From assembly GCF_001368915.1 (NCBI RefSeq), contig NZ_CSTE01000004.1, positions 62,001-126,000 of the forward strand: 64,000 nucleotides of DNA, in the 5' to 3' direction. This DNA is from Haloferax massiliensis (lineage in GTDB: Archaea; Halobacteriota; Halobacteria; Halobacteriales; Haloferacaceae). Below the pieces are notes generated by a model. It was not told the origin of the DNA. It saw only the letters and a list, made by a program, of their open reading frames with translations, and ran no database searches. The first letter of the stretch is position 1. Each line of letters begins with the position of its first letter. Of the stretch, positions 7,107-50,818 are shown in pieces. The position numbers and the translations under genes were made by a program.

Positions 7107-7167
7107 CAGCGTTCACAAGAGCAGAGCTCTTGTGTGCGGACGAGACGCAAGCGTCTCGTCAACGCTG
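7107..7167. repeat. Nested palindrome: two perfect hairpins inside an outer stem
   Basis: The outer stem CAGCGTT (7107-7113) pairs with AACGCTG (7161-7167). Directly inside lie CACAAGAGC-aga-GCTCTTGTG (7114-7134) and, after 4 nt, GACGAGACGC-aa-GCGTCTCGTC (7139-7160). All three stems are perfect and would form a three-way junction. The second hairpin shares its CGAGACGC/GCGTCTCG stem with hairpins at 31184-31202 and 50476-50494. It lies about 160 bp before the TnpB remnant, so an IS200/IS605-type origin is plausible. Confidence 0.85.
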
Positions 7168-16345: not shown

Positions 16346-17041
16346 TTGAGTGTGTTTGGGATGAAGCTCGCAGACCTGCTCAGCGAGTGCTTTGCGACGG
16401 ATTTAGAAGAAACTTGGGAGCGTGAGCGGACAGCGACGCCCGTTAGGGCGTTCGCTGTCCAGCTCCACGCGACCGGATATTCGCTCAGAGAAACAAAACA
16501 GATTCTTCGATATCTCGGCGTTGAACGGTCTCATCAAGCTGTTTGGCAGTGAGTATATCGACTGGCTGACAGCGGTCACAACCCGCCTGAGGCAACGCCG
16601 AAGCGGGTTGCGGTCGACGAGACCGCTGTCAAAATCAATGGCGAGTGGTCTTGGTTGTACGCTGCAATAGACATCGAGACAAAGCTGATTCTTGACGTCG
16701 AATTGTTTGGACGACATGGTACCGATCCGGCTGCTGCGTTTCTCCATCGACTCTCGGAGAAACACGATCTCTCAGATGCTGTGTTTCTCGTTGATAGCTA
16801 CGGCTATCAGACTGCCCTCTCTCGATTAGGATTGAGCGGTCGGCTTGACTATGTAGAGCGAAACCTCATCGAAAAGTGGTTTCACACCCTCAAAATGCGA
16901 GTCGACCGCTTCCATAATTCGTGGGTGGGCAGTCACGGAAGCGTCCGCGAGTGATTCATAGAATTTGTGCAATACTACAATTTTCAGAGACCGCATCAAG
17001 CGCTCGATGGGCGAACACCGGTTGGGGAGGTCACTAACTAG
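16346..17041 (+). pseudogene. IS6-family transposase with two in-frame TGA codons
   Basis: The 231-codon frame is intact except for two TGA codons (16550-16552 and 16952-16954), both where the family has tryptophan (WQ-stop-VYRLADS, and SVRE-stop-FIEF). The product contains the DDE catalytic core: RVAVDETAVKINGEWSW, VFLVDSYGYQTALSRLG and ERNLIEKWFHTLKMR. The N-terminus ATDLEETWERERTATPVRAF and RETKQILRYLGVERSHQAVW form the HTH region. The two TGG-to-TGA changes suggest recent inactivation rather than long decay. Confidence 0.88.
16428..16460. repeat. Hairpin inside the IS6 transposase gene (unexpanded state)
   Basis: GGACAGCGACGCCC (16428-16441), loop GTTA, then GGGCGT-t-CGCTGTCC (16446-16460): a 14-bp stem with one bulged T. 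It encodes part of ERTATPVRAFAVQ. The same hairpin is disrupted by arrays of further hairpins in the copies at 30880-31337 and 49888-50716. Confidence 0.85.
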
Positions 17042-23994: not shown

Positions 23995-24437
23995 TCTCAT
24001 CTACGAGTATTTATCCACCGAGAGCTCGGCAAGGTCTTTGAATGTTGTATATTGTACAAACCATATGAAATAGTTGCGGGCGACACCATGGCTACCAACC
24101 CACGAATTATGGAAGCGGTCGGCTCGCATCTTGAGGGTGTGAAACCACTTTCGATGAGATTTCGCTCGATGTAGTCAGGTCGACCGATCACCCTAATTGA
24201 GAGAGAACAGCAGATATCCGTAGCTATCAACGAGAATCACCGCGTCTGAGAGATCGTGTTTCTCCGAGAGTCGATGGAGAAGCGCAGCAGCCGGATCAGT
24301 ACCATGTCGTCCAAACAACTCGACGTCAAGAATCAGCTTTGTCTCGATGTCTATTGCAGCGTACAACCAAGACCATTCGTCACTGATTTTGACAGCGGTT
24401 TCGTCGACCGCAACCCGCTTCGGCGCTGCCTCGGGAT
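23995..24437 (-). pseudogene. IS6-family transposase fragment, decayed
   Basis: On the minus strand the sequence reads PKRVAVDETAVKISDEWSWL, then FGRHGTDPAAALLHRLSEKH and VILVDSYGYL, and after frameshifts and stops ERNLIES and RPCRALGG. It matches the second two-thirds of the transposase at 16346-17041. The N-terminal HTH third and both clear termini are missing. Several stops show older decay than in the 16305 copy. Confidence 0.8.
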
Positions 24438-30879: not shown

Positions 30880-31337
30880 AGAGATAGTGGAGTCGCGAAT
30901 AAGGCGCTACAGAGACCGGTTTCGGCCACGCGCTAACTCGTGGCCTCGGACGAAGGGTCACGGGTGGGAGCAGAGCCCCGCTCTGTGGGGTGCCGTACTC
31001 GTATCGAACCGCGGATGGTCGTTCTGAGAGGAAGAACAGTCGAGATACCGCGAGTCGGCGTGTTGTGACCCCCCAGAACGCGTACACCCACCGAGAAACT
31101 GACCGACAGGCGTCTTTCGAGCCCACAAACTCGCTCTGCGGGTTTGGGACGTCCCCAGAAATCTTTGATTTCTGGTGGGCAAACGAGACGCTGCGCGTCT
31201 CGTCGCGTCGCCGTCCGCTCACGCTCCCAAGTCTCTTCTAAATCCGCTGCAAAGCACTCGCTGAGTGGGTCTGCGAGCGTTGTCCCAAGCAAACTCAACG
31301 ACCTGCTCGCTTCTCAAACTGACTTAACTAGACAGTG
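30880..31337 (-). mobile_element. Truncated IS6-family element carrying an inserted hairpin array
   Basis: The right terminus TTAACTAGACAGTG (31324-31337) and the transposase start are present on the minus strand: TTLADPLSECFAADLEETWE and RERTAT. At 31216, inside the hairpin that the 16305 copy has intact, the gene passes into non-transposase DNA made of consecutive palindromes. The rest of the transposase and the other terminus are absent, so the left boundary is not certain. Confidence 0.72.
30924..31202. repeat. Array of perfect hairpins
   Basis: From left to right: GGCCACG/CGTGGCC (30924-30945), CAGAGC-ccc-GCTCTG (30971-30985), GTTCT/AGAAC (31021-31037), the palindrome GGGACGTCCC (31146-31155), CCAGAAATC-ttt-GATTTCTGG (31155-31175) and CGAGACGC-tgc-GCGTCTCG (31184-31202). 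The last shares its stem with hairpins at 7141-7158 and 50476-50494. The outer arm GCGTCGCCGTCC (31205-31216) is the residue of the original transposase hairpin. Confidence 0.82.
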
Positions 31338-49691: not shown

Positions 49692-49895
49692 TCAGATTTC
49701 GATAACGAATCGGATTTGACGTCGTTCCGGACTCCGCCCAGCCCCGGTCGATTGCTTCCCAACACCATCGGGGACGAACCGACCGTACAACGACCGTGTT
49801 GTTGTTAGTATAGTCGGTGACTGTCTGGGGCTGGTGGAGTCATCACGGTCATGACTGCTCGTGGACAACTCGGAATCTGTTTAATGCGGCACTGT

Positions 49896-50669
49896 CTAGT
49901 CACCCTCCTGAGCTGGCGTTCGACCGTCGAGCGACTGATGCGGTCGCTAAAAATCATAGTAATGAATAAATTCTGCAAGACACTGGCGGACGCTCAGTCG
50001 ACTGTCCACCCACGAATTGTGGAAACGGTCAACTCTCATTTTGAATGTGTGAAACCACTTTCCAATCAGGTTTCGGTCGGTGTAGTCGATCCGACCGTTC
50101 AACCCTAATCGAGAGAAGGCAGTTCGATAGTCAAAGGCATCAGCTAGAAATACCGTCTCTGAACAGTCGTGTTTCTCACAGACTCCGTGGAGAAACGCAG
50201 CCGCCGGGTCAGTTCCATGACGCTTGAACAACGCGACGTCAAGTGTCGAGGTCTATTGCAGCACACAACCAAAACAACTCACCATTGATTTTGACCGCGG
50301 TCTCGTCGACTGCGACCCGCCTCGGCTGCGCCTTCGGCGGGTCTGCAACGCTGTCAGACAGCCGACACATTTACTGAAAAATTGCTTGAAGCGAGCGTTC
50401 TACGCCGAGCAGCCGAAGAGTCGCTTCTGTCTCTCTGAGTGAAAGCCGGCAGCATGGAGCCGGACGGCGACGCGACGAGACACTTCGCGTCTCGTTCGCA
50501 TCTCGCAGGACCGCAGGTCCTGCGGACTCGTCGAAATCCAACGGATTTCGAGACACCAGAATTCTCCGGTTTCCGGGGACGCCCGAACGGGCGTCGCCGT
50601 CCGCTCACGCTGCCAACATTCAAGCGTAGCTGTGTCCAAACGCTCGTTGAGCAGGTTTGAGAGTCGCAT
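49896..50669 (-). pseudogene. IS6-family transposase, frameshifted and with in-frame hairpin insertion
   Basis: The start reads LSNLLNERLDTATLECWQRE, then RTATPVRA. In place of one residue, about 37 codons of palindromic sequence follow in frame and without stop, and the protein resumes as AVRLHAAG. A frameshift near 50448 leads to LRLLGVERSLQAIFQ, then a stop; RRVAVDETAVKINGELFW and FKRHGTDPAAAFLHGVCEKH follow, with a further break, and end at RNLIGKWFHTFKMRVDRFHN. Confidence 0.8.
50462..50602. repeat. Nested array of perfect hairpins in the transposase gene
   Basis: Outer stem GGACGGCGACGC (50462-50473) with GCGTCGCCGTCC (50591-50602). Inside: CGAGAC/GTCTCG (50476-50494), CGCAGGAC-cgcag-GTCCTGCG (50505-50525), CGAAATCC-aac-GGATTTCG (50532-50550), AGAATTCT (50558-50565), CCGG-ttt-CCGG (50566-50576) and GACGCCCG-aa-CGGGCGTC (50578-50595). 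The last hairpin and the outer stem share GCGTC, and together correspond to the single hairpin of the unexpanded copy at 16428-16460. Confidence 0.9.
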
Positions 50670-50818
50670 AGATCACTAGCTCTTCGACCTGCTCGTCCCT
50701 TAACTAGACGGTGCCGACGTGGTCCTCGGGTAGAGACTACATAGTTAGCATGTGGAGATTGTCTGGTATTACTAATTATTGCTCTTGCTTTTGCAGATAT
50801 GGTGGCACAGTCTCATTG

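Follow-up and report, generated by a model that had tools for sequence, protein, structure and literature searches.

We examined how a palindrome within an IS6-family transposase gene came to be split by a run of further palindromes. The window (the whole 64,000-nt stretch of DNA that was analysed) holds at 50462-50602, on the minus strand, an IS6-transposase hairpin split by an insert of four near-perfect hairpins. The first-pass annotation had described this run, had compared it with the single hairpin of an unexpanded IS6 copy at 16428-16460, and had proposed a stepwise insertion of small hairpins into existing ones. Both descriptions were borne out, and the run is far beyond chance: the DNA fold of the block reached -58.2 kcal/mol vs. 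-35.9 +/- 3.3 for shuffled sequences (z = -6.88; 0/200 shuffles as good). The proposed manner of insertion stood only in part, as set out below.

The split IS6 hairpin of the window

The features are listed by position, R1 being a covariance model of unit A, the two-hairpin unit described beneath the list.

7110..7165, plus strand: hybrid unit, left hairpin of type A2 and right hairpin of type A (R1 47.6 bits)
16428..16460, plus strand: empty allele, the unexpanded IS6 hairpin (GGACAGCGACGCCCGTTAGGGCGTTCGCTGTCC), one hairpin
31150..31209, plus strand: second unit A of the window, in an IS6 remnant (R1 74.7 bits)
49888..50715, minus strand: degenerate IS6-family element, the host (tblastn, residues 5-223 of the DL31/ISHme1 transposase in a single frame)
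50462..50470, minus strand: distal section of the host hairpin's 3' arm (TCGCCGTCC), cut off from its partner by the insert (compare empty alleles L146, L147, L148)
50473..50581, minus strand: net insert (about 108-109 bp), unit A with block B inside (class-wide search and empty/occupied comparison)
50475..50495, minus strand: unit A hairpin 2 (ACGAGACGC-GAA-GTGTCTCGT)
50501..50553, minus strand: block B (53 nt), placed at GGTG^TGCG of unit A, with one 9/3/9 hairpin at 50531-50551 and another at 50504-50524
50556..50576, minus strand: unit A hairpin 1 (9-bp stem, 3-nt loop)
50582..50602, minus strand: the host hairpin's 5' arm and loop, with the proximal part of its 3' arm (GGACGGCGACGCCCGTTCGGG)

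The host IS6 element has the termini GGCACTGTCTAGT / ACTAGACGGTGCC. Its hairpin on the minus strand, GGACGGCGACGCCC-GTTC-GGGCG...TCGCCGTCC, is broken directly after GGGCG, and CG is present on both flanks of the insert (50580-50581 and 50471-50472). Outer arms of 13 bp (50461-50473/50591-50603; 100% paired) enclose the insert hairpins, among them 50504-50524 (CGCAGGACC/GGTCCTGCG), 50531-50551 (TCGAAATCC/GGATTTCGA) and 50475-50495 (ACGAGAC/GTCTCGT); the hairpin at 50574-50599 (GACGCCCG/CGGGCGTC) is the old IS6 hairpin and lies outside the insert. The lengths give a net insert of 141 - 33 = 108 bp, i.e., 36 codons, which is stop-free and keeps the frame as annotated, but the transposase frame around it has three internal stops besides the terminal one and the gene is a pseudogene. 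The open frame of the insert therefore says nothing on function in that copy: the three stops rule out a functional meaning, and the reading frame here is incidental. IS6 copies with inserts are mostly broken. The empty allele occurs also in IS6 transposases annotated in Haloferax mediterranei (ISHme1), Halorussus limi, archaeon DL31 and Natrinema. Another IS6 transposase fragment lies at 24037-24435 (minus strand) of the window.

In a class-wide DNA search, query positions 21-129 recurred as one block at unrelated loci with 79-86% identity, and a shorter block without query positions 51-102 was far commoner than the full one. Unit A reads CGTCC-[9-bp stem, 3-nt loop]-TGTGCGA-[9-bp stem, 3-nt loop]-CAACG, and block B (TC-[9/3/9]-TGAGTC-[9/3/9]-AGA) always sits at GGTG^TGCG, between the two unit A hairpins, so that the window insert is unit A carrying block B inside. 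Ten of the ten exact places of block B in 391 genomes were inside unit A at this same junction and no independent copy was seen, by which block B was rejected as an independent mobile unit; a different two-hairpin block of 51 nt occupies the same junction at locus L022. Single-hairpin insertions were likewise ruled out, the unit being always a pair. A census of 720 kb of loci gave 121 distinct CGTY-hairpin-hairpin-RACG units vs. 0 in a Markov shuffle, which together with the fold score (z = -6.9) rules out chance hairpins; 93 of the 121 were exactly 57 bp, and 105 carried CGTC and CGTT as their two end tags. The unit ends CGTCC/CAACG differ from the IS6 ends and do not equal the IS6 terminal inverted repeats, so a MITE of IS6 was rejected.

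Insertion sites, empty alleles and spread

Joined flanks were used as queries, and the uninterrupted host sequences found in plasmids were aligned with the occupied ones. The two states differed by 57 bp net, with CG at either boundary (56 bp for one pair), at four tnpB-transposon sites, i.e., ~200 bp upstream of tnpB, in a tnpB-transposon end hairpin (CCCG^CCGTGAACGGCGGG), and at two positions inside tnpB genes. The occupied layout is X-CG-[TCCCC...GTCAA]-CG-Y, and the IS6 hairpin gives the same layout if the empty hairpin is taken in the matching orientation, GGACGGCGAACGCCCTGACGGG-CG-TCGCCGTCC. Unit A thus appears to be mobile, by precise 57-bp insertion at CG, as judged from unrelated occupied copies and their empty counterparts. 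IS6 copies compared at the insert position differed in hairpin content, from empty through +57, +108, +112, +138 and +167 to +219 bp, the last allele (Haloferax elongans) being a tandem of A+B, one C-type and one A2-type unit; the empty alleles, and the location of most copies outside IS6, rule out that the insert is a property of IS6 itself. Five tandem units lie within one tnpB-transposon end hairpin of genome G021, the second unit A of the window is directly 3' of a unit-C type hairpin pair (about 31110-31151), and the hybrid unit at 7110..7165 is at ATACAG^CG, a site used also upstream of tnpB elsewhere. In Haloquadratum a different 46-bp hairpin-pair unit (CGTTCACCAGACTCCGTCTGGTGGGCTGTCAGACGCAGTCTGACAACG) follows the same CG rule; among the copies of one host element in genome G014 it occupies those at loci L186 and L177, and the one at locus L167 is empty. 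The annotated stepwise insertion is upheld insofar as small palindromic units enter an existing palindrome repeatedly at the same IS6 position and five-unit arrays exist elsewhere, but the inserted unit is a fixed 57-bp two-hairpin cassette rather than a single hairpin of 11-21 bp, and the 110-bp A+B block recurs conserved, as a single unit, at unrelated loci, which goes part of the way towards the annotation's own refuting case.

In genome G021 (loci L193, L194, L195, L196; 1.9 Mb) R1 matched 62 times, and many hairpin pairs belonging to several families form arrays there, which may reflect an active or runaway state. At L014 and L020 an A2-type unit is found at a second insertion position of the IS6 transposase, between ..DPP and PKRVAVDET.

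Hairpins as targets, also part of the earlier reading, account for about half of the distinct sites, which have a strong hairpin no more than 8 nt away, but CG is the constant part. Hairpins with a stem of at least 7 were enriched within 8 nt of the CG (17/36 non-redundant junctions vs. 86/600, p = 6e-6), an enrichment due in part to neighbouring cassettes, which are hairpins themselves; in the strict test, a hairpin spanning the CG at the insertion point, it was not significant (p = 0.14). A hairpin at every site is thus only partly true, and the target rule is CG always, palindromic surroundings often.

Unit A is a palindromic repeat of more than 90% of the sampled haloarchaeal genomes (one genome per species) that has no Rfam entry: at E <= 0.001 R1, whose E-values are rough, had matches in 362 of the 391 Halobacteria genomes and in 83 of the 86 genera. 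Five genomes scored deeply gave 20-62 matches each, counting reverse-strand matches of the same copies, with 27 in H. walsbyi C23 (G014). Outside Halobacteria, a phylum-wide sample had matches in five genomes only, none better than 5.8e-6. Three genomes of family f18 (G450, G459, G466), outside Halobacteria, had 4-8 weak matches each, the best about 6e-6, which perhaps represent a related double-hairpin family. Among 117 copies, extracted by means of patterns taken from unit A itself, 14 were inside tnpB, 44 were 5' and 5 were 3' of tnpB, 12 were in or beside IS6, and 41 had neither with the limited queries used; IS6, the setting of the first-pass annotation, is a minor host, and tnpB (IS605/IS1341-type) transposons are the main one. 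Unit divergence was 0.07-0.15 within a site vs. 0.12-0.18 between sites; the site-lineages therefore share ancestry, and much of the spread of unit A may have been along with the host transposon. No description of unit A was found in the open-access papers searched.

Paired stems, inverted loops and a proposed mode of movement

The stems of unit A were paired in 98% of cells, with 22 double-change cells vs. 6.3 shuffled, and those of block B had 13 vs. 4.5. Over 107 distinct copies, 1893 of 1926 pairs were Watson-Crick, 14 were G-T and 19 were mismatched, which is more in keeping with DNA palindromes than with RNA stems that change by way of G-U. The loop-closing base pair was C-G in 107/107 copies for hairpin 1 and in 104/107 for hairpin 2, and the triloops were GNA or the complement TNC in 94/119 (79%) and 66/133 (50%), respectively, with 12.5% expected by chance. 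C(GNA)G is an extraordinarily stable, nuclease-resistant DNA mini-hairpin, of which CGCGAAGCG is one textbook form (PMC4686876); CGCGAAGCG is present in many units. Triloop frequencies correlated with those of their reverse complements (r = 0.92 and 0.83) and not with the reverse or complement alone (about 0), clearly the mark of hairpin-tip inversion, and unit A offers a clean natural example of it. The whole 33-bp IS6 hairpin likewise occurs in opposite orientations, RTATPVRAFAVR vs. RTANALTGVAVR (16428-16460; L146, L147, L148), open in frame both ways in annotated IS6 transposases, i.e., a natural in-gene inversion.

Such inversions, and the two orientations of the 33-bp hairpin, show that hairpin-templated events do happen here, and the extra hairpins could have arisen locally, by replication that slipped or switched template at a hairpin already present, with no transposition; we consider this very improbable, since one sequence-conserved 57-bp unit at unrelated loci across the class largely refutes it, and the unrelated empty sites are unlike the unit. 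The strong stem covariation and the many copies 5' of or inside tnpB would also suit a structured RNA module (such as an accessory omega-RNA domain of tnpB or a hairpin in an mRNA) that is selected at the RNA level and spread with tnpB transposons, as would sub-threshold Rfam matches to sot0042 and HgcC near some copies. We regard this as distinctly unlikely: G-U pairs are nearly absent (14/1926 cells), loops are about as common as their reverse complements, which is unexpected for a one-strand RNA, copies reside also in IS6 and point either way with respect to genes, and no Rfam family reached its gathering score for unit A. The sub-threshold matches are at L004, L008 and L028-L031, near tnpB-type loci with unit A.

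The scarcity of G-T pairs, the DNA-stable triloops and the tip inversion together favour a folded single-stranded-DNA intermediate. The insert is thus probably, in our judgement, a non-autonomous mobile double-hairpin cassette that moves as folded single-stranded DNA, in trans, by a hairpin-acting enzyme. The cassette has two hairpins and is tagged outside them by CGTC at one end and, on the opposite strand, by CGTT at the other. It enters at CG, mostly in IS6 palindromes and, within tnpB transposons, in coding sequence or in or beside the terminal palindromes. The CG left on both sides of each insertion permits further cassettes (A, A2, C and D types) to stack, and the window case is one cassette with a second hairpin pair (B) between its own hairpins. 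Movement would be as a folded single strand handled in trans, most plausibly by an HUH/Y1 (IS200/IS605 TnpA-like) transposase, and an excised single-strand circle of unit A would have the junction ...GTCAACGTCCCC... The cassette is best read as a selfish element, tolerated because 57 bp is 19 codons.

A Y1 transposase was matched in 25/30 unit-rich vs. 9/20 unit-free genomes (p = 0.006), a difference confounded with the much higher tnpB load of the unit-rich genomes, five of which had no Y1 match; no transposase gene flanked by unit A ends was found. The usual IS200/IS605 targets differ from CG, and a 5-nt terminus leaves little room for IS200/IS605 guide sequences. The CG that flanks every clean insertion on both sides is also the expected trace of a 2-bp core, and hence of a double-strand site-specific recombinase (IS607 serine type, tyrosine type, or IS110 DEDD). 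This is an unlikely source of the insert. At 57 bp, or 46 bp in Haloquadratum, a synaptic loop or circle of double-stranded DNA would be far below the persistence length, such a circle being mechanically unlikely, and what is conserved is a pair of hairpins with DNA-stable triloops rather than the half-sites of a recombinase.

Related repeats and in-frame copies

The closest described kind is the head-head dimers of CGTC-tagged REPs. These REPs, described from five bacterial phyla and including Rickettsia RPE-4 and RPE-6, have a CGTC/TGTC tag, an 8-9 bp stem that starts with AT, a 4-5 nt loop and a CCA tail; they are mostly head-head dimers, sometimes inside palindromes or genes, and have no transposase (Di Nocera et al. 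2013, PMC3733652). Unit A shares the unpaired outer CGTC (or TGTC) tag beside the stem, the stem length (9 bp in both hairpins), the tags outside with a conserved spacer, the location of some copies inside larger palindromes or genes, and the want of a known dedicated transposase. It differs in its 3-nt loops, in a first stem that starts CC(A), in the linker TGTGCGA with no CCA tail, in the second tag CGTT, in being archaeal and of fixed 57 bp at CG, and in being often tandem-stacked with other transposons as hosts. Since loop length, tail and first stem bases do not agree, unit A is not classed as a member. Unit A carries CGTC-type palindromic repeats over into the Archaea, and its unit, its target and its empty sites are precisely defined, so that the old question of what moves CGTC REPs and SMRs becomes directly testable in model haloarchaea.

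SMR-A of Haloquadratum walsbyi (HqIRS42/43/55; about 110 bp, prominent inverted terminal repeats, >95% identity; mobiliser unknown) has its preferred location within the palindromes close to the ends of PATEs and of IS605-type elements (Dyall-Smith et al. 2011, PMC3119063). Unit A resembles it in being very small and in inserting in IS605-type elements with no target duplication beyond CG, and A+B (110 bp) matches it in size; unit A is set apart from SMR-A, by its description, in its 57 bp and in ends that share only CGTY, and A+B has no long terminal repeats. PATEs and terminal-only IS605 derivatives (PMC3119063) are likewise small, with near-terminal palindromes and no inverted terminal repeats, and unit A might be a minimal PATE, i.e., the fused left and right terminal hairpins of a core-deleted IS200/IS605 element with block B as core remnant. 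Haloquadratum has a described PATE of 52 bp that consists of termini only and whose insertions are strain-specific (PMC3119063), and unit A has a hairpin near each end and no target duplication beyond CG. We think this improbable, to the same degree as the double-strand recombinase: no unpaired half-unit was among the matches listed for the five deeply scored genomes (one-hairpin sensitivity being borderline), each single-hairpin match was a full unit read in reverse complement, no parent was seen that had separated ends or the ends of unit A, and PATEs are targets, not inserts, in the SMR-A picture.

Rickettsia palindromic elements (RPE), about 150 bp, are reported in metabolic genes (review PMC10969869). 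Unit A is like them a palindromic mobile unit kept in frame within protein genes, but its in-frame copies are in transposon genes. Integron cassettes, with their attC sites, are folded-DNA units with a single bulged hairpin; unit A likewise stacks in tandem, at the junction AACGTY, yet it is gene-free and has two hairpins.

Unit A (57 bp, 19 codons) is in frame at several tnpB positions in genes that are otherwise open: before the RuvC motif GIDLGVN in L101/L139 (436 codons), after the RuvC-III motif in L114/L120/L121/L134, and in the C-terminal part of TnpB in L109 and L142. Unit copies were found in both orientations relative to genes. All four TnpB proteins tested (4/4) matched Cas12f1-like_TNB, and two passed the OrfB_IS605 cut-off. 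Pairs of insert-bearing tnpB genes had a host dN/dS of 0.07-0.31 at dS 0.10-0.66; the insert-bearing TnpBs have therefore stayed under selection, and they are a natural case of TnpB nucleases that carry 19 inserted residues in frame while purifying selection acts on them. For most pairs, synonymous divergence was 0.06-0.13 in the insert vs. 0.29-0.44 in the host gene (the exception was L109/L023). This may represent constraint on structure, or it could represent later arrival of the insert, and the values fit either. In its widest form, the folded-strand reading would be of a class-wide haloarchaeal hairpin-cassette system, i.e., several families of folded single-stranded-DNA units with CGTY tags, captured serially at CG by a putative enzyme (integron-like stacking with no integron) and taken in frame into functional RNA-guided nucleases (TnpB); we offer this tentatively as rather doubtful, a shade above the recombinase and minimal-PATE explanations.

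At L129 (about 1001) an in-frame unit A was observed at another IS6 hairpin (CCGCCGCGGGACTGACCCCGCGGCGG), close to the catalytic region, in an open partial frame.
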